NCBI GenBank assembly: GCA_009917695.1
Contig: JAACJG010000004.1
Span: 275,321-339,320, forward strand
Length of the DNA stretch: 64,000 bases
Source: Candidatus Rifleibacterium amylolyticum
GTDB lineage: Bacteria > Muiribacteriota > Ozemobacteria > Ozemobacterales > Ozemobacteraceae
Direction: 5' to 3'
Shown here: positions 10,790 to 60,425 of the stretch, one piece after another
Layout of the letters: each line of letters opens with the position of its first letter
How positions within the stretch are numbered: position 1 is the first letter of the stretch
The notes under the pieces: generated by a model
What the model was told of the DNA's origin: nothing
Seen by the model: the letters and a program-made list of their open reading frames with translations, nothing else
Database searches by the model: none
Made by a program: the position numbers and the translations under genes

Positions 10790-10823
10790 GTAGGGGTTCA
10801 ACATGTTGAACCCCTACGTTTTT
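10790..10823 (+). terminator. Perfect 14-bp-arm palindrome with T tail
   Basis: GTAGGGGTTCAACA (10790-10803) is followed directly by its exact complement TGTTGAACCCCTAC (10804-10817) and then GTTTTT. It can act as an intrinsic terminator for the HTH/micro-protein pair. Its perfect, loop-less symmetry also resembles a dispersed palindromic repeat unit. Confidence 0.6.
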
Positions 10824-15424: not shown

Positions 15425-15505
15425 AACCTGCGCGTAGTCGCAGGATCTCACTGAGCAACAAGAAGTCTGGATTCTGCGACTCCGCTTCGCTCCGCGCAGA
15501 ATGAC
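15425..15505. repeat. REP-like palindrome, GTCATTCTGCGC family
   Basis: CCTGCGCGTAGTCGCAGGATC at one side faces GGATTCTGCGACTCC and CGCGCAGAATGAC at the other. It is one of the copies shared with 2652, 20371, 53273 and 60290. Confidence 0.65.
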
Positions 15506-44365: not shown

Positions 44366-47245
44366 TCAGTAGTTGCTGTCGTAATAATAGGTTGCCAGAT
44401 CGTTGTTTTCTGCCATATGCAGCATATACATCATTCCGGTTGTTTTATCGAGACGTATTCTGGTGAGATCTTCTGCCAGAGAGTATAAAGGAGCAGCGTA
44501 GTCTGGATGGAGGAGCGATTGGATGAAAATCAAGCCCTGATCGACCCGATGAAAGTAATCATAGTCGCCGCCAGGTGCTGTGCAGATCCAGACTCTGCCT
44601 TGCGCATCGTAGTCGAGACAGAGTATGCTTGAAAGGTCTCTCTGATATCCGCTTAAACTGTCGACAGAGTAACCATTGTAATAGGCAGGCGAACCTCCGT
44701 AAGCGGCTATGTTTATCTTGCCATCTATCGCAGAAGCTCCCAATATCCGCTGACTAAATTCCAGTGTTCCTATGATGGGTGGCGACAGGCTCAGATCTGC
44801 ATTGGTGAAGGCTCTTATGACGGTTACATCAATCGCATCTCCGGGTGTCTCTACACATATCAGATAAAGAGCGTTGGTTGATCGGTCATAAGCTATTTCG
44901 GCGGATTTGCCGGCATCGACGTAGTTTTTGTTCGTGTTCATGCTGAAAGCCGGGTTCTTGACTGCGAGGTTTGCCGGATCCAGCTCATATATGCAGACAT
45001 AAGTACTGGCATATCTTGCAACCAGAAACAGCCTGTTGTCAAAGCTTCTGACGCTCGCGGTCGATACAGTTCCCAGTCCGAATCCGTCCGGATCAGTGAC
45101 AAGGCTTTTAGATGTAGCGCCCGTAAGATTAAGGCCCAGTTTGGTCAACATAGGTTCACCGCTCGTCACGTGCGTCAAAAAGATTCCGCCAGAGTGCACT
45201 GCCAGGCTATGAATTGCTGTTGGTGACATTCCATCGTCAGAAATCGTTGTCGATATGTGAGTATTATTTGTCAAATCTACTGCAAACAATGTGATTGGTG
45301 CGCCAGTAGTCATGCCTGTTGCCGCTATGTAAGCTTTGTTGTTATAGACTTCAAAGCCGAAGATGGTCCCATTGCTGGGGATGTCAGCCTCAGCCAGCAA
45401 GGTTCTGGCTTTGATGAAGTTCAATCCCTGACTTTTGGTACTGAAAGAATATTGTGCCATAGGTGTTATTGTTTGATTCGGATAATGGCTGATGACAGTA
45501 ATGCTGTATTCTGTTCCAGGCCTAAGGTTTTTATATGTATGGCTGCTGCCGGCAATATTCTGAGGCGGCACTATCTGTGTGGTCTCTTGCCAGAGTTCTA
45601 CGCTGACTTCGCTTACAAATGGCGCGTTATTCCATGTGAAGGTAATCGAGGTGTCTGTAGATTCAGCGGTAATATTCGTTGGCGGCAAAAGTCCTCTGGT
45701 AAAGGTTTTCTGATTGCTGTTAACTTTAGTTGTGCCGGACAGGTTGGTGGCCATAACCGAGTAGTTGCCGGGCGGCAGATTGCTGATGTCGAATTTGCAG
45801 ACAGAGGTTGTCCAGCTTGTAGTACCGGTTGCTGTGAGGTTGATCCCGTTGGCAGAAGCCTGGGTGAGTGGTGCAGCTGTCTGGAAAGGGCCACCGTTGA
45901 GGGTGAGAACGTTTCCGGTAATAGATGTGGTGCTGATATATGGAACGAAGAATGTCGCGCTCAGGTTGGCGCCGGTTACGTCAACCCCTGAACTTACTGC
46001 TACGTTCAAAGCGCTGCTCTGATAGCCGTTGATGGCAGGGTCTACTCTGATCGTGTAATTGCCAGGTGGCACCCTGGTGAAACTGAAGTTGGCCGGAGAG
46101 ACAGCGCCAACCGGTCGGCGCGCGACAAAAGAGGGAGTTCCAGACTGGTTCTGTAAAATGATCTCACCTTCTGTTATTGTCCAGCCTGAAGTGGGCGCGC
46201 CCCAGGTTACTGTTCCGCTGACGTTCGAACCGTCTTTTGCAGTCGTCTGGGTTATGCCTGCCACTGTGGTCGTGCTGTTGCTGAGGCTGTTCAAGGTTAC
46301 CCTTACTGAACCTGGTTCAAAAATATAATCGGTGTTGACTGCCATAACAACATAGTTGCCGGGCATGGTGACGCTGAAGGCAAAGTTGCCGCTGGCGTCG
46401 GTATTGGTGCCGAGCAGGCTGTTGTCTTCCTGACGTGTCAGCATCACAAAAATCCCGCCCAGTTCGCTCGAAGTAACGCCGGTTCCGGCTATCAGGCTGC
46501 CGCTGAGAGTCTGATATGCCGTAGTTTTGGCTGTCAGTGCGAAAGTCCCGACGTCTGTCGTCTCGCCCGGTCTTACAGTGATACCAGTTTTGGCTGAAGC
46601 ATCGCCGAAGGCTGAAATCACCTGAATCTCGTATGCCGCGCCCGAAGTCGAATTAGAGGGCACATTGTTGATCGTAAAATTGCCGTCAGAGTTGGTCAGG
46701 GCGATGTAGGAGGTGCCGGTAATGTAGACGAATGCACCTGAAATATTCTGAGTCACGCCGCCAATGGTCTGGGCAACCTTGCCGCTGATCTTGCCGGTGG
46801 GTGTCAATTGCGGGTTGAGTGTGGTCACCTGGCCAAGCAGAACGCCGGTCTGCACGAACTGGTGGTTCTCGTCGCGCATTGCGATCAAAGTATATTCACC
46901 GACCGGAATTTCGGTAAAGTTGTAGACACCTTCACCGTTCGTGGTGGTTGACCAGGCCCCATCGCCGATAGCCTGCTGTGCCAGCAGTGAACCTTTCAGG
47001 GCAGGCATCTGCGCCATTCCGGCCGTATGCGCCTTTTCGCTTTTGTAGAGGTTTACTGTAGCGAAGGGAGTCGGTGTGTTGTCGAACAATACTGTTCCGC
47101 TGAGACTGGCGGTCTCGCCGCTGGTCAGCGTCGGGCCTGCCGGATTGCTCGCGCTGCCGGTTCCGCCGCCGCCCCCGCCGCATCCAATGATTGCCAAAGA
47201 CAACGTAACCAGGCAAAACAGCGCAATAACGGGTTTTTTAAACAT
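44366..47245 (-). CDS. Large lipoprotein with carboxypeptidase-regulatory-like and fibronectin III domains (paralogue A)
   Basis: 959 residues. Lipobox SLAIIGC followed by a glycine run (CGGGGGG). Four to five carboxypeptidase-regulatory-like beta sandwiches come first (ASLSGTVLFDNTPTPFATVN; GKISGKVAQTIGGVTQ; ISGSLIAGTGV), then a fibronectin III-like domain (TDTSITFTWNNAPFVSEVSV). The C-terminal 300 residues (FGFEVYNNKAYIAATGM ... YMLHMAENNDLATYYY) look like a beta-propeller. It is a clear paralogue of 49176-51998 along its whole length. Probably a surface-exposed binding protein; ligand unknown. Confidence 0.85.
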   Translation of the reverse strand: MFKKPVIALFCLVTLSLAIIGCGGGGGGTGSASNPAGPTLTSGETASLSGTVLFDNTPTPFATVNLYKSEKAHTAGMAQMPALKGSLLAQQAIGDGAWSTTTNGEGVYNFTEIPVGEYTLIAMRDENHQFVQTGVLLGQVTTLNPQLTPTGKISGKVAQTIGGVTQNISGAFVYITGTSYIALTNSDGNFTINNVPSNSTSGAAYEIQVISAFGDASAKTGITVRPGETTDVGTFALTAKTTAYQTLSGSLIAGTGVTSSELGGIFVMLTRQEDNSLLGTNTDASGNFAFSVTMPGNYVVMAVNTDYIFEPGSVRVTLNSLSNSTTTVAGITQTTAKDGSNVSGTVTWGAPTSGWTITEGEIILQNQSGTPSFVARRPVGAVSPANFSFTRVPPGNYTIRVDPAINGYQSSALNVAVSSGVDVTGANLSATFFVPYISTTSITGNVLTLNGGPFQTAAPLTQASANGINLTATGTTSWTTSVCKFDISNLPPGNYSVMATNLSGTTKVNSNQKTFTRGLLPPTNITAESTDTSITFTWNNAPFVSEVSVELWQETTQIVPPQNIAGSSHTYKNLRPGTEYSITVISHYPNQTITPMAQYSFSTKSQGLNFIKARTLLAEADIPSNGTIFGFEVYNNKAYIAATGMTTGAPITLFAVDLTNNTHISTTISDDGMSPTAIHSLAVHSGGIFLTHVTSGEPMLTKLGLNLTGATSKSLVTDPDGFGLGTVSTASVRSFDNRLFLVARYASTYVCIYELDPANLAVKNPAFSMNTNKNYVDAGKSAEIAYDRSTNALYLICVETPGDAIDVTVIRAFTNADLSLSPPIIGTLEFSQRILGASAIDGKINIAAYGGSPAYYNGYSVDSLSGYQRDLSSILCLDYDAQGRVWICTAPGGDYDYFHRVDQGLIFIQSLLHPDYAAPLYSLAEDLTRIRLDKTTGMMYMLHMAENNDLATYYYDSNY

Positions 47246-49175: not shown

Positions 49176-51998
49176 TCAGTAGTTGCTGTTGTATTTGTAA
49201 ATCGCCAGCTGGTTAGCGGCGTTAAAATGCAACATGTACATTATGCCGGTTGAAGCTGCAAATTTAGGAGCCAGGTCTACGGTTAGATAATAACCGTTGA
49301 ATACTTTAAGGGATTGCTGGATGTTAAGGTTAAAATCTAACTGTTGTAGATAATGTTGTTGGCTTAATGGGCTTTTATAAGCCCATGTTCGGTTTTGTTT
49401 GTCAAATCCGATGCCGGAATTGACGTATGACGTTGGGAAGCTAGAGTAACCACTTCTCGCATCCATAACATAGGCGTTAGGAGTTCCTGACATATCATAT
49501 ACCAGGAAAAGCTGATTGCCTGCTGCATGAAATCCTAGAAGAGAGGAACTAGAAAATTGCCCAACAGTTGGAGGATTGGCAATTGTGATGTCCAGGTTGT
49601 TGAATGCTCGTACTTCATAATAGGTGCTGTCATTATAAACCAGATAAATACTGTTCATTACAGGGCTGTAGGCGATGTCCGTAGAATATCCTGAGGCATT
49701 CGCTCCGGCAGTGACGCTTCCTGAGTTAACGACGCTTAAAGACGAGTTGAGCTCTCTAAGCGCTATGAGAGTGCCTGATCTGACAACGAGGAAGATTCTG
49801 TCGTTCAGGCTTCTGACTCTAGCCATTTCTGGCGCAGCAATGGAGAAATCAGTCGCGATGTCTTTGGTGAAAGTTGGCGCACCGAGACTGCTGCTGAAAG
49901 CAGATATTGTAAGCGACGCAGCAGGGGTTGAATAGGTCAGATATGCTCCACTTGAGTTTGCGGCTAGACTGCGCGCTGATGTATCAGAGTCTGTTGTCAT
50001 TACACTGCTTGAATTAATCAGGGCATTTGTTGTCAGATCAAAGGACTGAATTGTAATCGGTCCGGAGTTGTCAAATGCTACATATGCGGTGTTGCCAACA
50101 ACTTCGAAGCCGAAGATTGTTCCTGTTGCAATGCCGGCGCCTGTGAGCTGCACGGAAGGTATGCTGTTAATTCCATCAGCTTTGGTGGCGAATGAGAAGG
50201 TTTGGGGGGTAGAGTTCGGGAGATTGGGATAGGTGCTGATGACTTCGATCGTGTAAGTGGTGCCGGGCAGCAGTTTGTCGTAGGTAAAGCTGTTGCCGAG
50301 AATTTTTTGCGGCGGTCTTACCTGGGCGGCACCCAGCAGGAGTCTGATCTGAACTTCGGTGACGTGGGGGGCATTCTGCCAGTTGTAGGTGATCGAGGTG
50401 TCGGTTGAGGAGCCGGTGAAGCTGGCGGCAAGAGGTGCCAGTACCGGGCGGGTGAAGGGTTTCTTGTTGCCGGGCAGGCGGCCTTCGGGCAGGATTTTAA
50501 CCAGCTGAACGATGTTGTCGCCGGGTGGCACCTGAGCGATGTTTATCACTACAGATGTATTGCTGATCGAGATGATGGTTGCCGGCTTGTCGTTTACGAA
50601 TGCCAGAAGGTTGGCGGCAACTGTTCCGAAATTGTTGCCGGGAATTGTAAGCTGATCTGGAGATGCTGCTACGGTGGTCGGAGTAGAAGTGATTATCGGC
50701 GCTATAAAAGTGGTAACCAGAGAGCGGTCGGTCAGGTCTACACCCTGAGTTACCGTAAAGGCGGCAGTAGCGCCGGTATAACCATTGCGCAGCGGATTTG
50801 CTTTGAGAACGTATGAGCCGGGGGGAATATTTTCAAAGCGGAATGGCGCTGGCGACTGATTCGAAATGATGCGGCGGTCAACAAAAGTTGGGCCGGCGGT
50901 AGTTGTTCCTTCTATTATTATTTCGCCTTCAGTGAAAGTCCAGTCGGTTATTGCCGGCCAGGTAACATTGCCTGCAACTACAGAGCCGCCTGTCTGAATG
51001 TGTGATAAGACGAAGTCAGCAAGATTTTCGGTTGTGTTGTCGAGAGCCGTTACAGTTACAGTTTGTGAAGCTGGTGCGAAATCGAGAAAACCTTCTGTTG
51101 GCATGACATAATATCTTCCCAGGCGGTTAACGAAAAAACTGTAATTGCCGGTGCTGTCAGTTGAAGTTCCGATAAGAACGCCATCGACCTCGGCTGCAAG
51201 AATTACGAACTGATCGACGATGTCAGCGCTGGTTGCTCCGGCGCCGGCGACAAATTTGCCGGCAATTTCCTTGTAGCCTTCAGTCTGCTGCGAGAGAGAA
51301 ATTGTGCCTATGTTGGTGGTTTCGCCCGGGTTAACGACGACTCCGGTTACTGGCGATGCGGTGCCTTTGCCGGGCATTACGGCGACTTCATAGGCAGTGC
51401 TGTCTGCGAGCGCATTTGACGGCACGTTGTTGATGACGAAATAGCCTGAAGCATCGGTCAGCGCGATGTAAGAAGTGCCTGAAACATATACGAAAACGGC
51501 GGCGGCACCCTGCTCGGAGGTTCCGATCATGGCGGTGACACGCCCACCGATCTTGCCGGTTGGCGTGAGCTGTGCGTCGAGTGAAGTCACCTGACCAAGC
51601 AACACGCCGGTCTGGGCGAACTGATGATTTTCGTCTTTAACGGCGATAAGGGTATATTGACCAACCGGAACATCGGTAAAGCTGTAGACTCCGGCGCCAT
51701 TGGTCGTGGTTGAATATGCGCCATCACTGATAAGCTGCTGGGCGATCAGGGAACTTCTGAGGGCTGGCATCTGAGTCATGCCAATGGTTGGAGCTTTTTC
51801 GCTTTTGTAAAGATATACTGAGGCATTGGCCAGCGGAACGCTGTCGAACAGCACGGTGCCGCTGAGGCTGGCGGTTTCTACGCTCGAAGCGGTCGGGCCG
51901 GCCGGGTTGGCTGTGCCGCCGCCACCGCCGCCGCAGCCGATGATGGCCAGAGAGAGAACGAAAAGACAGGTTAACAGTAGTGCGGATCTTCTTAACAT
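49176..51998 (-). CDS. Large lipoprotein with carboxypeptidase-regulatory-like, IPT/TIG and fibronectin III domains (paralogue B)
   Basis: 940 residues. Lipobox SLAIIGC then CGGGGGG. The N-terminal 230 residues closely follow paralogue A (ETASLSGTVLFDSVPLANAS; GVYSFTDVPVGQYTLIAVKD; TGVLLGQVTSLDAQLTPTGK), as does the C-terminal beta-propeller-like part ending KYNSNY. It differs by an IPT/TIG-like domain around 440-520 (TIPGNNFGTVAANLLAFVND) before the shared fibronectin III-like domain (TDTSITYNWQNAPHVTEVQI). Likely an outer-surface binding protein. A small lipoprotein gene lies directly upstream on the same strand (25-nt gap). Confidence 0.85.
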   Translation of the reverse strand: MLRRSALLLTCLFVLSLAIIGCGGGGGGTANPAGPTASSVETASLSGTVLFDSVPLANASVYLYKSEKAPTIGMTQMPALRSSLIAQQLISDGAYSTTTNGAGVYSFTDVPVGQYTLIAVKDENHQFAQTGVLLGQVTSLDAQLTPTGKIGGRVTAMIGTSEQGAAAVFVYVSGTSYIALTDASGYFVINNVPSNALADSTAYEVAVMPGKGTASPVTGVVVNPGETTNIGTISLSQQTEGYKEIAGKFVAGAGATSADIVDQFVILAAEVDGVLIGTSTDSTGNYSFFVNRLGRYYVMPTEGFLDFAPASQTVTVTALDNTTENLADFVLSHIQTGGSVVAGNVTWPAITDWTFTEGEIIIEGTTTAGPTFVDRRIISNQSPAPFRFENIPPGSYVLKANPLRNGYTGATAAFTVTQGVDLTDRSLVTTFIAPIITSTPTTVAASPDQLTIPGNNFGTVAANLLAFVNDKPATIISISNTSVVINIAQVPPGDNIVQLVKILPEGRLPGNKKPFTRPVLAPLAASFTGSSTDTSITYNWQNAPHVTEVQIRLLLGAAQVRPPQKILGNSFTYDKLLPGTTYTIEVISTYPNLPNSTPQTFSFATKADGINSIPSVQLTGAGIATGTIFGFEVVGNTAYVAFDNSGPITIQSFDLTTNALINSSSVMTTDSDTSARSLAANSSGAYLTYSTPAASLTISAFSSSLGAPTFTKDIATDFSIAAPEMARVRSLNDRIFLVVRSGTLIALRELNSSLSVVNSGSVTAGANASGYSTDIAYSPVMNSIYLVYNDSTYYEVRAFNNLDITIANPPTVGQFSSSSLLGFHAAGNQLFLVYDMSGTPNAYVMDARSGYSSFPTSYVNSGIGFDKQNRTWAYKSPLSQQHYLQQLDFNLNIQQSLKVFNGYYLTVDLAPKFAASTGIMYMLHFNAANQLAIYKYNSNY

Positions 51999-53151: not shown

Positions 53152-53248
53152 TGAACTGGTCTCCTTGAGAATATGAACTTATCAACCGCTTAGAACACTT
53201 TATTCTAAACTCTTTTTTTGCTTTCTTCAAATTTTTTGTGGTTCAAAT

Positions 53249-53437
53249 AGCAATTCTCGGTCAAAATCAAGTGTCATTCTGCGCGAGCCGTCAGGCGCAG
53301 TCGCAGAATCCATCTTTTTAGCGGCCTCTCTGGATCCTGCGACTGCGCTTCGCTTCGCGCAGGATGACGAACAAAAAGCCAGGCTCCAACATCGTGATCC
53401 CTGTTGTTGCGGGTTTTACGCCTCACCGAGAATTGCT
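53249..53437 (-). mobile_element. 189-bp MITE-like element, copy 1
   Basis: Bounded by AGCAATTCTCGGT (53249-53261) and its exact inverse ACCGAGAATTGCT (53425-53437). The centre is a REP-like palindrome (GTCATTCTGCGC at 53273, GCGCAGGATGAC ending 53368). The reverse complement aligns end to end, without length change, with copy 2 at 60220-60408, at roughly 80-85% identity by eye. No reading frame is present. No target duplication is evident. Confidence 0.75.
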
Positions 53438-53455
53438 GGCTGTTGTGCAGAATGC

Positions 53456-53484
53456 TGGCAAAAAAATGGCGGTGGTGATATTAT
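53456..53484 (+). promoter_or_regulatory. Putative promoter of gene 53524
   Basis: TGGCAA (53456-53461), 17-nt spacer, TGA then TATTAT (53479-53484). The -35 is poor; the -10 is extended. Confidence 0.45.
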
Positions 53485-53523
53485 CAGGTGACTGAAACTT
53501 TACGCATCAAAGGAAGATAAGCA

Positions 53524-53805
53524 ATGCTCGACAGAATTGACCGACTGGTGTTCTATTTTACCGTTGAGTGCGCTAACTGCCGGGACGTTATGAAGGTCAG
53601 CCACGAAACCATTCTCATGAAGTCTGGCGAGCTTTTCTGCTCTCTATGCGGAAAAGATGTTAAAGTGCCAGATTATGAGAAACTTGCGCGTGCTGCTGCC
53701 AGCCTTAACGAATATGTCAGTGACAGTTTTAACTCCAAATACGTCAAGCTGGTGCTCAACGAAAAATACGTTCCGCTGGATGACATGCCCGCTGCCGGGC
53801 ACTGA
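53524..53805 (+). CDS. Small zinc-ribbon-like protein
   Basis: 93 residues. Two CxxC pairs (ECANCRD at about 16-20 and FCSLCGK at about 39-43) about 20 residues apart form a likely treble-clef or zinc-ribbon module, followed by a helical C-terminus (YEKLARAAASLNEYVSDSFN). AAGGAAG precedes the ATG by 9 nt. No family is recognised and no signal peptide is seen. It stands alone, downstream of the 189-bp element, between it and a degenerate repeat. Confidence 0.65.
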   Translation: MLDRIDRLVFYFTVECANCRDVMKVSHETILMKSGELFCSLCGKDVKVPDYEKLARAAASLNEYVSDSFNSKYVKLVLNEKYVPLDDMPAAGH

Positions 53806-53825
53806 GCCGATCGTTCTCCTGCCAT

Positions 53826-53960
53826 TTTACGCGCAGCTGTCAGGCGAAATTGCAGAAACCATATGCTTTGTTGAAATTCTGTGAGATTCTGCGACTTCGC
53901 GCAATGACGGTTTAGCTAGCGCAGGATGGTTTGCCTTCGTGACGGTTAGCTAGCGCAGGC
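53826..53960. repeat. Degenerate GTCATTCTGCGC-family repeat with a short direct repeat
   Basis: Worn pieces of the REP-like family (GATTCTGCGACTTCGCGCAA) and a doubled GACGGTTAGCTAGCGCAGG-like unit (53906-53925 and 53941-53960). Confidence 0.4.
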
Positions 53961-53991
53961 TTACGGTTACGTTTTGTGCCGCATGCTGAGT

Positions 53992-54549
53992 TTACAACTG
54001 AGCGAGGACGCCTTTGTTGACCTGTTTTACCGCATCGGCGCCAAGGAGTTGTTCGACGAGCGCAAAAGCGAACTCGAAGGTGGTTCCGGCTGCGCGCGAA
54101 GTGGTGACGTTGCCGTCAATGACTACCCTGTCTTCGCAATAATTGACGCCGACCATGTGTTCGGCTGCAGCCGGGTGTGAGGTGGCGCGCCGTCCATTGA
54201 TCAGGCCGGCTTTGGCGAGCACAGCAGGTGCGGCGCAGATTGCCGCGACTTTTTTTCCGGCTGCATGCATTTTCTGGATGAAGCCGATGACCTTTTGATT
54301 AGCGCCGAGATTGCGGGTGCCGTCGATTCCGCCTGGCAGAATGGCGATATCGCAGTTTTCGACCGCGATCTCGTCGAGGCAGAGATCTGGCAGCATGCTG
54401 ATATTGCGCGAGCCTTTGACGGCGGCTTTGTCGGCAGCGAGTGTGACAGTTTGCGCTTCGATGCCGGCGCGTCTGAGAATATCGACAGTTATGGTCAGTT
54501 CCATTTCTTCAAAGCCGGGTGCCATGAATACCAGCGCTTTTTTGGTCAT
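53992..54549 (-). CDS. DJ-1/PfpI family protein
   Basis: 185 residues, one DJ-1/PfpI domain: KALVFMAPGFEEMELTITVD with the conserved glutamate, ILPGGIDGTRNL, and the nucleophile-elbow cysteine in VAAICAAPAVLAKAGLI, then ATSHPAAAEHM and GNVTTSRAAGTTFEFAFALV. It is closest in pattern to the DJ-1/YajL/ThiJ branch (deglycase or chaperone-like claims, oxidative stress), not the PfpI protease branch. It follows the glycosyltransferase gene by 75 nt. Confidence 0.93.
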   Translation of the reverse strand: MTKKALVFMAPGFEEMELTITVDILRRAGIEAQTVTLAADKAAVKGSRNISMLPDLCLDEIAVENCDIAILPGGIDGTRNLGANQKVIGFIQKMHAAGKKVAAICAAPAVLAKAGLINGRRATSHPAAAEHMVGVNYCEDRVVIDGNVTTSRAAGTTFEFAFALVEQLLGADAVKQVNKGVLAQL

Positions 54550-54624
54550 TATCGGTTTTCTCCTCCGTAAAAGTTTAATTCGATTACGAGAATGATCAGG
54601 ATTACGCGAACTAGTAAGATCGTT

Positions 54625-55857
54625 TCATGGGCGCAACAGGTCGAGGCAGGTGATGAAAACATCATCGACGCTGATGGCACGCATGCAGGCGTTGTCGTTG
54701 CAGGCGGTGGCACGGTGGTTGTATGAGCTGACACAGGGTGAGCAGGCGAGTTCGGCCGAAATTGCGACCTTGTTTTTGCCGAGAGCGCCGTAGAGTCTCG
54801 GGGTTTCTGGGCCAAACAGGGTTATGACCGGCAGATCGGTCAACGAGGCAAAATGCGAAGGGCCGCTGTCGTTGGTGATCATCAGGTCACAGACTGAATA
54901 CAACACGAGCAGCTGGCGCAGTGAAGTTTTGCCGACCATGTTGATGACGCGGCTGTTGCCAAGAGCCGCGGCGACGCGTTCTGACTCTGGCCTCTCATTC
55001 ATGGTGCCGGTAAGGACAATACTTATCTCAGGCTTTTCGAGCAGGCGGCGGCCGAGTTCGATGAAGTTTTCGAGTGGCCAGCGGCGCAGCGGCACCAGTT
55101 CACTTGAGTTGGCATTGATGATGACCAGGCGGTTCTCGCGCGGACAATCTGGCGCTTCACGATAAAGCTGCTCTCTGACCTGTTGCTGCTCTTCCGGTGT
55201 CGTGTTGAGAGTCGCCAGTTCGAGCTCGTCGAGGGGTTTTACTGCGGTTTTGTTGAGAGGAATCTGCCCGGCCGGCTGAATCACCGCTTCGACCATCGAC
55301 AGAAAGGTCTGGGCGGTGTGAATATGCGGGTTATATTGTACCGGATGTGTAAAAAAGCAGCCTTTATAGAGGCCTTCCATGGTAAATCGGTTAAAACCGC
55401 AACTGGAACTGGCTCCGGTCAGTTCGGCAAGAATAGCCGATGCGCGCGAAAAGAATTCGAGGTCGAAGACCAGATCGAACTCGGCGAGGTTGAGCGAAAC
55501 AAGTCGGTGCAGTGCGTCCCAGGCGAAGATGAACAAATTCGAAGTTCGAATGGTATGAATGTTCGCCTTTGGCACCAGGCCAAGCATGTCCACTGCTGCT
55601 GTATTCTCGGCGAAAACGAGAAAGTGAAATTCGCAGTCCGGCCAGATTTCGCGGGCGCGCCTGAGCATCGCATACATGAGAACTGTGCTGCCCATTTCCG
55701 CCGGCTTGACCATGAGAATTTTGCCGATCGGAGCATCGGCGAGCGAGCCGAAGCGGCGGGGCCAGAAACGGTCGAGAATTTTGCGGCGCAGGCTGAGCAG
55801 GGCACAGATGGGCGGGCCCAGAGTTGCATCGATTTTTCGCATGGTATCTGGTTTCAT
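54625..55857 (-). CDS. Glycosyltransferase family 9 (heptosyltransferase-like)
   Basis: 410 residues with an N-terminal extension of about 40 residues before the first Rossmann strand (GKILMVKPAEMGSTVLMYAM). The C-terminal GT-B domain has the family 9 signature ITNDSGPSHFASLTDLPVITLFGPE, and LVIINANSSELVPLRRWPLE. Family 9 enzymes add ADP-heptose or related sugars to lipopolysaccharide core at the inner membrane. CSPC and CNDNAC cysteines near the end resemble those in heptosyltransferases that end with CxxC. No other LPS gene is adjacent. Confidence 0.9.
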   Translation of the reverse strand: MKPDTMRKIDATLGPPICALLSLRRKILDRFWPRRFGSLADAPIGKILMVKPAEMGSTVLMYAMLRRAREIWPDCEFHFLVFAENTAAVDMLGLVPKANIHTIRTSNLFIFAWDALHRLVSLNLAEFDLVFDLEFFSRASAILAELTGASSSCGFNRFTMEGLYKGCFFTHPVQYNPHIHTAQTFLSMVEAVIQPAGQIPLNKTAVKPLDELELATLNTTPEEQQQVREQLYREAPDCPRENRLVIINANSSELVPLRRWPLENFIELGRRLLEKPEISIVLTGTMNERPESERVAAALGNSRVINMVGKTSLRQLLVLYSVCDLMITNDSGPSHFASLTDLPVITLFGPETPRLYGALGKNKVAISAELACSPCVSSYNHRATACNDNACMRAISVDDVFITCLDLLRP

Positions 55858-56023
55858 GTTGCGATTATAGCACAGAGGTTCGTATGACCCAAAATATTAT
55901 TCAAACCTGTACTGATAAGGGTTCTTTTGGCTGTCTATGCTGGTTCTGCCGTCTGGCAAAAAACGGCGGCATGGCGCGGGTGATTTATGTTATATTGCGT
56001 TTATTCAATCTGCGGGGGATGCT

Positions 56024-56593
56024 ATGGAACCAGCTGATTTTGCAGTGCGTATCGAGGAAGTGATGACCGAGGAGTGCTCGAGTTACGAGTGCGTTCTGGT
56101 CGACGATGATGAGATCGGGCGACTGTGGACGTTCGTTATTGAAGACACCTTCAGCGGCTATTTGAGCGTTGATGACAACGAAGAAAGCTTGAAGGTGCGG
56201 ACAGTGACAGTAGGCATAAATCTCAAGGATATCACCGGCGCTTCGCGCGAGGAGCTGCTCGAATTGTTCGCGCGCAATGCCGGGCTGGTAAGCGCCAATT
56301 TCAGTGTGATGAAGTTCCCGGTCGCTGCTGATGCAGAAGAAGAACCTTTGATAATAGATGAAGGTGAAGATGTTGATTTTGCTGGCGACGAAGCTGAACC
56401 GGAACTGCATGATATGCTGATCATTCAGACTCGTTTGCCATTCGAGGCTTTTGCCCCGGAAGACTTTGGTGGTTACATACAGAATCTGCTCTTTCAGGCT
56501 GATCTGCAGCTGACTCAGGCGGATGATGACGAAGAGGGCGGGCTAACTGATTTTGATGAAGACGATGAACTTGACGATGATTTTGATGATTGA
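56024..56593 (+). CDS. Acidic protein of unknown function
   Basis: 189 residues from the ATG at 56024, preceded by GGGGGA. The fold looks alpha/beta with a two-part pattern (LWTFVIEDTFSGYLSVDDNE ... LFARNAGLVSANFSVMKF, then LIIQTRLPFEAFAPEDFGGY), loosely like YbjN or secretion-chaperone folds; this is weak. The C-terminus is a strongly acidic run of Asp/Glu. No signal peptide. It is followed 13 nt later by gene 56607 and is probably co-transcribed. Confidence 0.7.
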   Translation: MEPADFAVRIEEVMTEECSSYECVLVDDDEIGRLWTFVIEDTFSGYLSVDDNEESLKVRTVTVGINLKDITGASREELLELFARNAGLVSANFSVMKFPVAADAEEEPLIIDEGEDVDFAGDEAEPELHDMLIIQTRLPFEAFAPEDFGGYIQNLLFQADLQLTQADDDEEGGLTDFDEDDELDDDFDD

Positions 56594-56606
56594 GGAGTGA
56601 CAGTCG

Positions 56607-57380
56607 ATGCAGCCGCAAACCAGCCTCAGCCTGCCAGAAGCAATCAAAAGCGATATTAGTATTTATCTTGCTCCCGATGAGAAAGTGCTCAAGGCGATCA
56701 GGTCAGACGCTGAGCGCACAGCCAGTAAGGGCCAGGTCTGGCTGATTCTGAGCACTGGATCGGTTATTTTTCATACCTGTGAGATCGGTAAGGAGCCTAT
56801 TATTGCTCTGTTGTCACGGCGCGAGATTCGTGAGATCGAATATTTTCAGCGCTTGAATGAAGTCGTGCTTACTTTTGTGCCGGCACGCAGCCCGCAGAAC
56901 GTTACGCGACTTAGTTTTGCCAACAGTCAGCGGCCTGAGCTGGAAGATTTTTGCGACGATCTTGCTGATCTGATCAGTTTTAAAAAAGAGACGGCGGGCG
57001 GCGTAAAAACTTATGCAGCGCCGGTAGTGTCTTCGCCCACGCCAGACACACAGGAGTTGCCGTCTTCTGCCCTGCGTAGCGCCGCTTCGGCAGTGAAATA
57101 CTCGACAAAGCCGGTTTCTGAGAGTCGCCCGAAAGTTGAGCCGGTTGCGGCAAAGAAGGCTGCGCCAGAAATTAAACCTGACGTGAAGATTGCCGAATCG
57201 CCAAAAGAAGCTCCTGCTTCATCACCTGATTCTTCGTCAGCTGTAAGCATTGATAAGGTTGTTCAGAATACGACTGCGCAAGGAGCGATTGGCTATGTCG
57301 TTGCTGCAACAGTCATCTCTGTTCTGGTCGGGTTCCTCTGGTACAAGTTTTTCAGCTCACTGGCCCGAATCAAAGATTGA
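56607..57380 (+). CDS. Tail-anchored protein with PH-like N-terminal domain
   Basis: 257 residues. The first 130 residues alternate strands and a helix in a PH-like way (LAPDEKVLKAIRSDAE; GQVWLILSTGSVIFHTCEIG; REIREIEYFQRLNEVVLTFV), like the bacterial domains that open with an 'L..gE.v' strand. A Pro/Ser/Ala/Lys-rich disordered linker spans about 135-225. A single C-terminal membrane helix (IGYVVAATVISVLVGFLWYK) ends it. It would face the cytoplasm, anchored at its tail. Paired with the acidic gene before it; function unknown. Confidence 0.65.
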   Translation: MQPQTSLSLPEAIKSDISIYLAPDEKVLKAIRSDAERTASKGQVWLILSTGSVIFHTCEIGKEPIIALLSRREIREIEYFQRLNEVVLTFVPARSPQNVTRLSFANSQRPELEDFCDDLADLISFKKETAGGVKTYAAPVVSSPTPDTQELPSSALRSAASAVKYSTKPVSESRPKVEPVAAKKAAPEIKPDVKIAESPKEAPASSPDSSSAVSIDKVVQNTTAQGAIGYVVAATVISVLVGFLWYKFFSSLARIKD

Positions 57381-57395
57381 CGCAGCTGATCAGGC

Positions 57396-59186
57396 TCACA
57401 TGCTCCCGGTTTTGAACTGACCCCAGAGATCTGTGAAGTCTTTTACTGCTTTGCCTGATTCTGACACGAGATGGCATTTATTCAACCTTATCAGATATGA
57501 GCCGCCGGCTCTAAGCATGCGGTAAGGCACGAGTTCAAGCAGAGTGTTGTTTTCTTTCCAGCTGACCGAGAAATTGCTGCGCAGTGAAGTGCCATCGAGA
57601 ACCATTTTTGCTCCTGAATCAAGGCTGGTGATCTCAATTTCGAGATCATTATAGAGCGAATCTGGCTGCATGCTGCGGTCGAAGCGAATGGCGAAGGGGC
57701 CAGAGCGGCCCACATCGGTATCGCCATTTTTCGGGCTGGTCGAAACAATGCTGGGGCTCGGGTCGGCATCAGTGGTGAACTCGCCGTAAAGGCCTTCATA
57801 GGTTTTCAGCATCCGGCCATCGGCAGCGCGCGCGTTCCATCGCGAAATCGTCATGCTGTAGCGGGTGCTGGCAGCGAGCGGTTGGCGTGGATAAAGCTGC
57901 AGAACCGTGTCTGACTTCCAGACGATGCGAAAGTGCTGCTCGATAATCGGGCCGTTCAGAGCAATCAGGCCGGCTCCGCTTTTGTTCTGTATCATCAGGT
58001 TGATGTCGTTGAAGACCGAAGCCTTTTCCATCACCTGGCCGAAACCAATCTCAAATGGGCCCGAGACCGGAAAAGCGGTCTGATTCATATATGGTCTGGT
58101 CCAGGAAATTACCGCATCCAGTTCAGGAATGGTGCCGGCTTTTGACAGGCGTGCATTCACAAGTGTCAGTCCGTCAATCGAAACCGGAACGTAGTAGCCC
58201 TCGATGGTTTGATAGCCATTACGGGCGAGTCTGATCGTAGTTTCGCCGTTGCCGGTTATATTCGAACCGAGAATGGCACGTCCATCGCTGCTACCCGATA
58301 CCGCCTGACTTGCGCCTGCATCTACCGTAACTTCGGCGATCGGCTTGACTTCGCCGGCGCTGTTTTCGACGGCGGTAACCTCGATCATGCCTCGTTTGAG
58401 CAGAAATGAATCGCCTCTTGCTACAGCTACGCTGACTTCATTATAACCCGGGTAAAAGGTCAGTTCGTCCATTATGCGCAGACCGTCTCCAACAAGCAGA
58501 GAGGCGTTATAGCTTACTTCCCAGGTGAGATATTTTACCGTAACCAGAGTAGAAGTTGCCAGCGCCTGAGCCTGGTCGATGTTGAACTCTACCATGCCGC
58601 TTCCGTCGCTGACGCCAACTTCACCAATGGCGGCAAGTTCGATTCTGGCACCCGAAATCGGAACTACCGGGCTGCCTGGTTCAGCGCTGAAACGACCGGT
58701 AAGAATCGAAGTGCGGTCGGCATATATCGTCAGTCGATAAGTGCTGTTGCCAACAACATCTACGCTATATTCGGCTTTGGCCTGTCCACCGCGAACATCA
58801 GTCGCGATGCAGGTTATGAGGTTGGTCGAAGTGTGGCTGGGGGCTTTCCAGACGGCATTGCTGCCTTCGGTAGAGATGATGTCGCCATCACTGGCTTCCC
58901 ACGCTATATTGACCTGGCCGCCCGCCGGATCGATTGCCTCGGCACGCAGATTGAGTTCTGCCTGAGGGCCAACAACGTTGCGTGTGGCATAAATAACGAC
59001 AACCGGCACCGGGTCGCCGCTTGTTTTTGTTTCGGTGCTGCCGATGTTGAGTTCTGATTCAGGATCGGCCGCTGCCGGATTGAGAGAACTTATAGAATTA
59101 GCGCTTGTGCAGCCGGCAATAAGTGTTGCCACCAGCACACAAAGCGCTGCGTAGAGCAATTGTTTGGCGAGATTCTGTGTTTTCAT
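57396..59186 (-). CDS. Lipoprotein with SbsA-type Ig-like domains
   Basis: 596 residues. Lipobox LIAGC then TSANSISS. One Ig-like/PKD domain (VVVIYATRNVVGPQAELNLR; NIAWEASDGDIISTEGSNAV), two carboxypeptidase-regulatory-like sandwiches (about 150-345), and two C-terminal Big_5/SbsA Ig-like domains, the second opening PSIVSTSPKNGDTDVGRSGP and containing IRFDRSMQPDSLYNDLEIEI. These domains occur in surface and S-layer associated proteins. Monocistronic, converging on gene 56607. Confidence 0.85.
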   Translation of the reverse strand: MKTQNLAKQLLYAALCVLVATLIAGCTSANSISSLNPAAADPESELNIGSTETKTSGDPVPVVVIYATRNVVGPQAELNLRAEAIDPAGGQVNIAWEASDGDIISTEGSNAVWKAPSHTSTNLITCIATDVRGGQAKAEYSVDVVGNSTYRLTIYADRTSILTGRFSAEPGSPVVPISGARIELAAIGEVGVSDGSGMVEFNIDQAQALATSTLVTVKYLTWEVSYNASLLVGDGLRIMDELTFYPGYNEVSVAVARGDSFLLKRGMIEVTAVENSAGEVKPIAEVTVDAGASQAVSGSSDGRAILGSNITGNGETTIRLARNGYQTIEGYYVPVSIDGLTLVNARLSKAGTIPELDAVISWTRPYMNQTAFPVSGPFEIGFGQVMEKASVFNDINLMIQNKSGAGLIALNGPIIEQHFRIVWKSDTVLQLYPRQPLAASTRYSMTISRWNARAADGRMLKTYEGLYGEFTTDADPSPSIVSTSPKNGDTDVGRSGPFAIRFDRSMQPDSLYNDLEIEITSLDSGAKMVLDGTSLRSNFSVSWKENNTLLELVPYRMLRAGGSYLIRLNKCHLVSESGKAVKDFTDLWGQFKTGSM

Positions 59187-59243
59187 GAAACACCTCCAGC
59201 TGTCAGCCCTATCGGCGCAAGGTGGAGATTTTTTAATGAGAAT

Positions 59244-59312
59244 TGATTTAGAAATCGATACCCGATAGAGAACCGATACCGATACCGAACCCGATAGCGA
59301 TACCGATAAGAG
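59244..59312. repeat. CGATAC hexanucleotide microsatellite
   Basis: Imperfect tandem units (CGATACC, CGATAGC, CGAACC) before the rpmB promoter. The same hexamer forms the tract at about 10046-10086. Confidence 0.7.
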
Positions 59313-59350
59313 AGAGCGGGGATGGTGTACAGTAAAGTTAAATTTTACAC

Positions 59351-59379
59351 TTGATTAGTTGGCGGATGTCTGGTATCAT
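59351..59379 (+). promoter_or_regulatory. Sigma-70-type promoter of rpmB
   Basis: TTGATT (59351-59356), 17-nt spacer, TATCAT (59374-59379) preceded by TGG, 37 nt before the start codon. Confidence 0.7.
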
Positions 59380-59415
59380 AATCTTTCACTTCGGCTTGAT
59401 CTTGGAGGTTTGAAT

Positions 59416-59604
59416 ATGTCAAGACTTTGTATGGTTTGCAATCGTGGACCAAGGGTTGGCTTTAAGCTCAGCCATTCTCATCATCGCACAAAAAGACGCT
59501 GGAGCATCAACCTCCAGAAAAAACGGGTCATGCTCAACGGCGCTCGCGTTCGTGGATACATCTGCACCCGCTGTCTGGGCAGCGATAAAGTAACTGCAGC
59601 TTAA
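59416..59604 (+). CDS. rpmB: 50S ribosomal protein L28
   Basis: 62 residues from the ATG at 59416, with GGAGG seven bases upstream. Family core: RGPRVGFKLSHSHHRTKRRW then NLQKKRVMLNGARVRGYICT. It keeps both zinc-binding cysteine pairs (CMVC near the start and CTRC near the end), so it is the zinc-requiring C+ form. In several bacteria the C+/C- switch is tied to zinc supply. Monocistronic. Confidence 0.95.
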   Translation: MSRLCMVCNRGPRVGFKLSHSHHRTKRRWSINLQKKRVMLNGARVRGYICTRCLGSDKVTAA

Positions 59605-59626
59605 GCATTTCCTGCCGTAATCGGCG

Positions 59627-60154
59627 TCAGTTCTGTCTAGCGCACAGAGTTTGGTGATTCCGGGCGATGTAGCTGACAATGATGACGCAGATGGCGGTTT
59701 CCGGGAGCATGTGACCGAGATTGTAGAGGCAGCTGGCCAAAATAGCCTGCATAAAAGTGTCTTTACCGGTCACAAAGAAAATTGCACCGGCGACAACGTG
59801 TAGTAGCAGACGGATAACGTTTGCCAGCGTTGTCGCCGCTGCTGCTTTGAGGGGATTTTGCCATGCAATCATGCCGGCAAGGCCGACAGCGGCATAGGCG
59901 AGAGGATAATCGAGAATAAACTGCACGGGATGCACGATAAAAGGGCGGGTTGTCAGCATCAGCAGACCAAGCAGAAAGCCGCTGGCGCACCCGGTCAACA
60001 AACCATGGCGGGCACTAAGCAACAACAGGGGCAGCACGCCGAGCGACACTGAGCCACCGCTCGGCATCTGGAACAGCTTGATGTTTGCCAGCGCCAAAGC
60101 GGCTGCCAGCAGCATTCCACATTCGGTTACGACGTTGAGCTTTCTGATCCGCAC
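59627..60154 (-). CDS. thiT: Thiamine ECF transporter substrate-binding subunit
   Basis: 175 residues, about six membrane helices. The ThiT pattern is clear: LFQMPSGGSVSLGVLPLLLL, then LTGCASGFLLGLLML, and HPVQFILDYPLAYAAVGLAG. ThiT captures thiamine and uses a shared ECF energizing module, which is not encoded here. The start is a GTG at 60154 with GGGGTGA upstream. No TPP riboswitch features are seen in the short leader. Promoter TTGCCA-N17-TATCTA at 60198-60170. Confidence 0.88.
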   Translation of the reverse strand: MRIRKLNVVTECGMLLAAALALANIKLFQMPSGGSVSLGVLPLLLLSARHGLLTGCASGFLLGLLMLTTRPFIVHPVQFILDYPLAYAAVGLAGMIAWQNPLKAAAATTLANVIRLLLHVVAGAIFFVTGKDTFMQAILASCLYNLGHMLPETAICVIIVSYIARNHQTLCARQN

Positions 60155-60169
60155 TATTCACCCCGATTT

Positions 60170-60198
60170 TAGATACCATTATTTGACATTCTTGGCAA
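60170..60198 (-). promoter_or_regulatory. Sigma-70-type promoter of thiT
   Basis: On the minus strand TTGCCA (60198-60193), 17-nt spacer, TATCTA (60175-60170) preceded by TGG. Confidence 0.6.
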
Positions 60199-60219
60199 TG
60201 TTGTAAAGATTAAGTCGGC

Positions 60220-60408
60220 AGCAATTCTCGGTGAGGCGTAAAGCCATCATCAACAGTGATAACGATTTTGGGGTTTGACTTTTTTGTTTGTCAGCCTGCG
60301 CGGAGCGAAGCGCAGTCGCAGGATCCAGAGAGGCCGATATAATGTGGATTCTGCGACTTCGCCTGACGGCTCGCGCAGAATGACTGTTTATTTTGACCGA
60401 GAATTGCT
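60220..60408 (+). mobile_element. 189-bp MITE-like element, copy 2
   Basis: The same 13-bp perfect terminal inverted repeats as copy 1 (60220-60232 and 60396-60408) and the same internal palindrome (60290-60384), in the opposite orientation. The left 25 nt (AGCAATTCTCGGTGAGGCGT onward) and the right 20 nt are almost unchanged between copies; the variable part is between 60243 and 60285. Confidence 0.75.
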
Positions 60409-60425
60409 GATGTGCGGCAGGGTTT

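Follow-up and report, generated by a model that had tools for sequence, protein, structure and literature searches.

The two short repeats described here are genuine: they are old copies of a mini-transposon without genes of its own. They lie on contig C4 of Candidatus Rifleibacterium amylolyticum, in a stretch of 64,000 nucleotides that was analysed as a whole and is called the window below; the genome (G000) comprises 5.39 Mb in 35 contigs. Both repeats very probably descend from a non-autonomous DDE transposon, that is, a MITE, and have since decayed. The ends, the copy number, a 9-bp duplication, an empty site, a full-length partner with the same ends, and a REP core were all observed. A previous sequence-only reading had arrived at the MITE interpretation, and all the checks that it proposed came out in its favor.

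Structure and Surroundings of the Two Elements

The two equally long elements in opposite orientation, with AGCAATTCTCGGT and its inverse at their ends, are present as the sequence-only reading described them. It had measured them as 189 bp with 13-bp ends; the pairing of the ends was borne out, while the unit proved to be one base longer at each end, with a length of 191 bp and 14-bp inverted-repeat ends, CAGCAATTCTCGGT...ACCGAGAATTGCTG. The boundaries were set at 191 bp and 14 bp because the 9-bp duplications begin there. The features are listed below by window position.

53248–53438, plus strand: MITE copy 1, 191 bp, without coding capacity; its site is empty in G002 and G005
53248–53261, plus strand: left terminal inverted repeat of copy 1, TAGCAATTCTCGGT, whose first base has changed from C
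53425–53438, minus strand: right terminal inverted repeat of copy 1
53273–53312, plus strand: first CGTC-type REP palindrome of copy 1, GTC-ATTCTGCG...CGCAGAAT-CCA (type after PMC3733652)
53331–53368, minus strand: second CGTC-type REP palindrome of copy 1, inverted, TGG-ATCCTGCG...CGCAGGAT-GAC, head-to-head with the first (type after PMC3733652)
53455–53484, plus strand: promoter-like site downstream of copy 1, CTGGCA-18-TATTAT; outside the element
60219–60409, minus strand: MITE copy 2, 191 bp, in the orientation opposite to copy 1
60219–60232, plus strand: terminal inverted repeat of copy 2, GGTGAG end
60290–60327, plus strand: REP palindrome of copy 2
60345–60384, minus strand: REP palindrome of copy 2
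60396–60409, minus strand: terminal inverted repeat of copy 2, GGTCAA end

The two copies are equal in length, opposite in orientation, and 88% identical, and a single mutation has put T in place of C at position 53248, in the left end of copy 1. The length of 191 bp, the 14-bp terminal inverted repeats (TIRs), and the lack of a plausible open reading frame are the features that mark them as MITEs. Each copy sits between divergently oriented genes, upstream of plus-strand genes. An Rfam search gave no match. Within the window, the exact 13-mer AGCAATTCTCGGT was found at the four element ends only, and no over-representation was observed when three mismatches were allowed (26 versus 21.7 expected). 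With one mismatch, the whole genome contained 36 copies versus 8 for the reversed control. Other repeated sequences in the window are two paralogous large putative lipoproteins (44366–47245 and 49176–51998), whose genes are close together and have further similar stretches nearby in the sister genome, and a 33-nt repeat of the type CTCGCACAAAGCCGCAGAGACACGAAGAA, with eight copies between 2508 and 47443.

Copies in Relatives, Target-Site Duplication, and Empty Sites

Further copies with constant ends were present both in the genome and in its relatives. The 189-bp query detected full-length relatives at about 7 places in the window's genome and about 12 in the sister species G002, together with many partial matches in these genomes that covered the core only; these counts were drawn from sequence searches and are approximate. 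G002 is a species of the same genus, and its copy counts and coordinates are identical to those of the genome of Candidatus Riflebacteria bacterium HGW-Riflebacteria-1, whose D-Ala-D-Ala ligase is 84% identical to the one encoded downstream in the window. Of 40 genomes of the phylum, 13 contained the 14-mer end. In further genera (G006, G010, and G017), MITEs were found that have these ends but other interiors and no REP, so it was in the lineage leading to G000 and G002 that the REP-bearing type multiplied. G012 alone held 50 copies of the end, many of them 40–90 bp from contig ends, which suggests a multi-copy element with these ends that broke the assembly, and a recent burst.

Target-site duplication was examined in 35 non-redundant end pairs, spaced 90–300 bp apart, by comparing their flanks with those of shuffled pairs. 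The mean match of the 9-bp flanks was 0.756 versus 0.261 for the shuffled pairs (z = 16.2), and exact 9-mer repeats flanked 7 of the 35. A weak excess was seen at a flank length of 8 (z = 4.2, two exact 8-mers), and lengths of 3–7 and 10–12 stayed at or near background (|z| of 2.1 or less). Three other copies in the window's genome (L008, L009, and L026) have kept 8 of the 9 duplicated bases. No recognisable 9-bp duplication was found at the two window copies (1/9 and 3/9 bases matching). Their duplications are decayed, and the claim of a 9-bp duplication for them therefore rests on the sibling copies and on the empty site.

The search for empty sites in close relatives was successful for copy 1. 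In G002, the homologous flanks of this site are 12 bp apart versus 215 in the window, and in G005 the interval falls short of that in the window by about 190 bp. At the copy 2 site, G002 carries an unrelated repeat sequence instead.

The Autonomous Partner and Its Transposase

The sequence-only reading had proposed looking for a full-length transposon with the ends of the MITE, and related genera proved to have one that shares both. The autonomous element on contig C71 of G015 is 1564 bp long and carries a 439-aa transposase between the ends CAGCTATTCTCGGTCAA and CAGCAATTCTCGGTGAG; no duplication was found in its flanks. A second autonomous type, in G006, is represented by two such ends on separate contigs, with portions of the transposase gene. 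The MITE and the autonomous element each have one GGTCAA end and one GGTGAG end, and these match individually. An identical stretch of 21 bp, CAGCAATTCTCGGTGAGTTGT, occurs in one G002 MITE copy and the G015 element, and 17 bp, CAGCAATTCTCGGTCAA, are held in common with the G006 element. Beyond these ~17–21 bp, local alignments between the MITE and the autonomous element were no better than those of shuffled sequences, and the idea that the MITE interior came from the autonomous element was rejected on this ground.

The transposase scored 27.2 bits against DDE_Tnp_1, above the cut-off of 23. None of the NCBIfam transposase models reached its cut-off, the best being IS4_2 (30.7 versus 152); one plasmid homologue is annotated as ISNCY, and the PDB contained no sequence relative. 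Distant relatives of the transposase in G006 and G017 have similar ends and exact 9-bp repeats (AGGGCGACG and AGCTGATGC), as do those on plasmids of Saccharobesus, Calothrix, and Anabaena (TAAATAAAG, GAAATATAC, and GGCAACGAC). The transposase was not found in G000–G005, which include the window's genome and its congeners, and a DDE_Tnp_1 search in G000 and G002 gave no match. With the window's genome being ~95.6% complete, the absence of the transposase is likely but uncertain. The window copies are probably stranded, their partner missing from the genome, because the transposase was not found there.

In the mechanism that we propose, a transposase of an IS family with CAGYAATTNTY-type ends would bind the two non-identical ends (..GGTCAA and ..GGTGAG), move the element, and insert it at staggered cuts, the repair of which would produce the 9-bp direct repeats. 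It would have acted in trans, by cut-and-paste or copy-out, from a full-length element of ~1.56 kb that survives in other genera of the family, and the autonomous copy would have been lost from this genome. The REP dimer and the right arm multiplied along with the ends in the lineage that includes G000 and its sister, and both copies landed between divergent genes, copy 1 upstream of a conserved promoter.

Promoters and Expression

Both copies had been thought to lie directly before a plus-strand promoter. This held for copy 1, with the site at 53455–53484; at copy 2, a scan for a plus-strand sigma-70 promoter gave no match, and only a -10-like TATCAT, which the sister species also has, is visible. 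Most of the CTGGCA-18-TATTAT that follows copy 1 on its right is preserved where G002 and G005 have the empty site, and this comparison indicates that the promoter-like site predates the insertion and is no part of the element. The proposal that the element affects expression was not upheld, as the promoter at the copy 1 site is not within the element and exists at the empty sites too; the MITE copies are presumably without effect on the host. A terminator scan detected none at copy 1 and one weak T-tailed stem at the element edge at copy 2.

The REP Core and Its Dispersal

The core consists of GTC-ATTCTGCG...CGCAGAAT-CCA, an 18-nt spacer, and TGG-ATCCTGCG...CGCAGGAT-GAC, and it has a CGTC/TGTC tag, a stem of 8–9 bp starting with AT, and a CCA tail. 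Its loops are 6 nt in the shortest copies and longer in the MITE copies, outside the range of 4–5 nt. Apart from the longer loops, the core fits the definition of CGTC-type REPs in PMC3733652, two of which are joined here as a head-to-head dimer; exceptions to the loop length are mentioned in that paper. We named it "CGTC-type" and kept it out of CGTC-1 to CGTC-4 because its loops are longer than 4–5 nt.

The core motif was counted 95 times in G000, 119 times in G002, and 8 times in G001, with zero copies in G003–G006 and G012. Only 13 of the 95 half-sites in G000 lie inside TIR-bounded elements, and REP dimers without the 14-bp ends occur; the earlier observation of the core elsewhere in the window without the ends was confirmed, e.g., at 15469 and 20428/20459. 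CGTC-type REPs are found in at least four MITE subfamilies with the same ends and different arms: the window type; L026 and L025, with GTCATTGCGA palindromes; L175/L215; and L216/L072. One subfamily exists both without the REP dimer (L202:7026–7180) and with it (L216:1536–1771 and L072:1395–1627), the dimer-less L202 and the dimer-bearing L216 being in the same genome. In the L216-type subfamily, the dimer insert has CTGTGA direct repeats at its borders. A RAYT-like tyrosine transposase gene was identified (L293, at G000:C1:111277–111525, and L295), with synteny conserved between G000 and G002, and no core REP was found within 1.5 kb of the RAYT genes.

Several other repeats were noted. A second palindrome family, GTCATTGCGA, built in a core-like style, occurs at window positions 2853, 5779, 5885, 10851, 10912, 16433, and 16589, and a perfect palindrome, GTAGGGGTTCAACATGTTGAACCCCTAC, similar to a GTAG-tagged REP, lies at 10790–10817. 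At contig ends of G000 (L013, L023, L055, and L059) and in G002 (L314), the same ~120-bp sequence, with the end ...TTGACTTTTAACACAGCA, abuts CATTCTGCG, which there is mostly the head of a CGTC-type REP; the sequence resembles the terminus of a multi-copy insertion sequence with the CATTCTGCG motif as its target. At two further G000 contig ends (L012 and L053), another multi-copy sequence, which contains the palindrome ATATATTCACC...GGTGAATATAT, has inserted into a MITE copy and near a REP.

Since we know of no transposase for CGTC REPs, nesting in a DDE-mobilised MITE comes into question as a vehicle and would be one possible route of their dispersal. That CGTC-type REPs in Riflebacteria spread partly inside such MITEs is a tentative idea, and rather on the unlikely side; with the nested dimers, the way in which CGTC REPs move becomes open to testing.

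Alternative Explanations

The equal length and 88% identity of copy 1 and copy 2 might also result if one had arisen from the other by segmental duplication or gene conversion in the window. However, the flanks are unrelated, with no similarity beyond the 14-bp ends; several contigs and the sister species carry copies; and the copy 1 site is empty elsewhere. Segmental duplication was rejected on account of the unrelated flanks, and the probability of either process is negligible. It is very unlikely that the element has been retained for a regulatory or insulating role, as a hairpin between divergent promoters: two relatives lack it at the copy 1 site although the promoter is conserved, a relative has an unrelated repeat sequence at the copy 2 site, and no selection for position is evident, despite the strong fold (z = -6.9 as single-stranded DNA) and the location of both copies upstream of plus-strand genes.

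We also considered the REP hairpin dimer as the unit that spreads, by means of a RAYT-type tyrosine transposase, with the 14-bp ends as a mere insertion site. The core is far commoner than the ends in G000, dimers without the ends exist, and the genome has one RAYT-like gene, which is conserved in G002; yet the 9-bp duplication adjoins the 14-bp ends and not the REP edges, and other genera have elements with the same ends but without REP. RAYT mobilisation of the 191-bp unit was rejected, with the boundaries being wrong and no core lying around the RAYT gene. Spread by RAYT is highly improbable and is contradicted for this unit, while it may hold for cores outside MITEs. The non-autonomous DDE transposon is thus the reading that we prefer.

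Comparison with Known Systems

A search of the open-access literature yielded no paper on transposable elements of this phylum and no relevant match to the end sequence. The present case is complete in that it combines a MITE, a target duplication, an empty site, and an autonomous partner, and it defines the ends and the 9-bp duplication for a DDE transposon group of Riflebacteria, cyanobacteria, and Gammaproteobacteria. A REP pair within a MITE of this kind is unusual.

As far as the available text of PMC6382973 describes it, MITEAba12 of Acinetobacter is likewise short and non-coding, with 9-bp duplications and with TIRs common to a full-length IS to which its similarity is confined to the ends. 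Its ends (GGCTTTGTTGCA...) and its IS are unrelated to those found here, that text describes no REP dimer, and the IS is co-resident, whereas the IS of the Rifleibacterium MITE was not found in the genome. The cyanobacterial "ISNCY" elements (Gloeothece WP_013335080.1 and relatives) encode a homologous transposase, with 33% identity over 96%. The IS copies of Gloeothece, Calothrix, and Anabaena end in CAGCAATTCTCATT, and those of Calothrix and Anabaena are flanked by exact 9-bp duplications, but these elements are ~1.8–1.9 kb long and differ in the last end bases, and the name ISNCY is a catch-all.

The CGTC-tagged REPs, in the available text of PMC3733652, resemble the core in the GTC tag, the 8-bp stem starting from AT, the CCA tail, the head-to-head dimers, and the lack of a flanking RAYT. 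They differ in their loops of 4–5 nt, versus 6 nt or longer here, and in that the dimer here lies inside a DDE-type MITE. A REP dimer nested in an inverted-repeat frame, as in our elements, is also described in that text for GTAG-15 of A. variabilis and CGTC-1 of H. neapolitanus; those frames are linked there to neither a transposase nor a target duplication, whereas the frame described here is linked to both.
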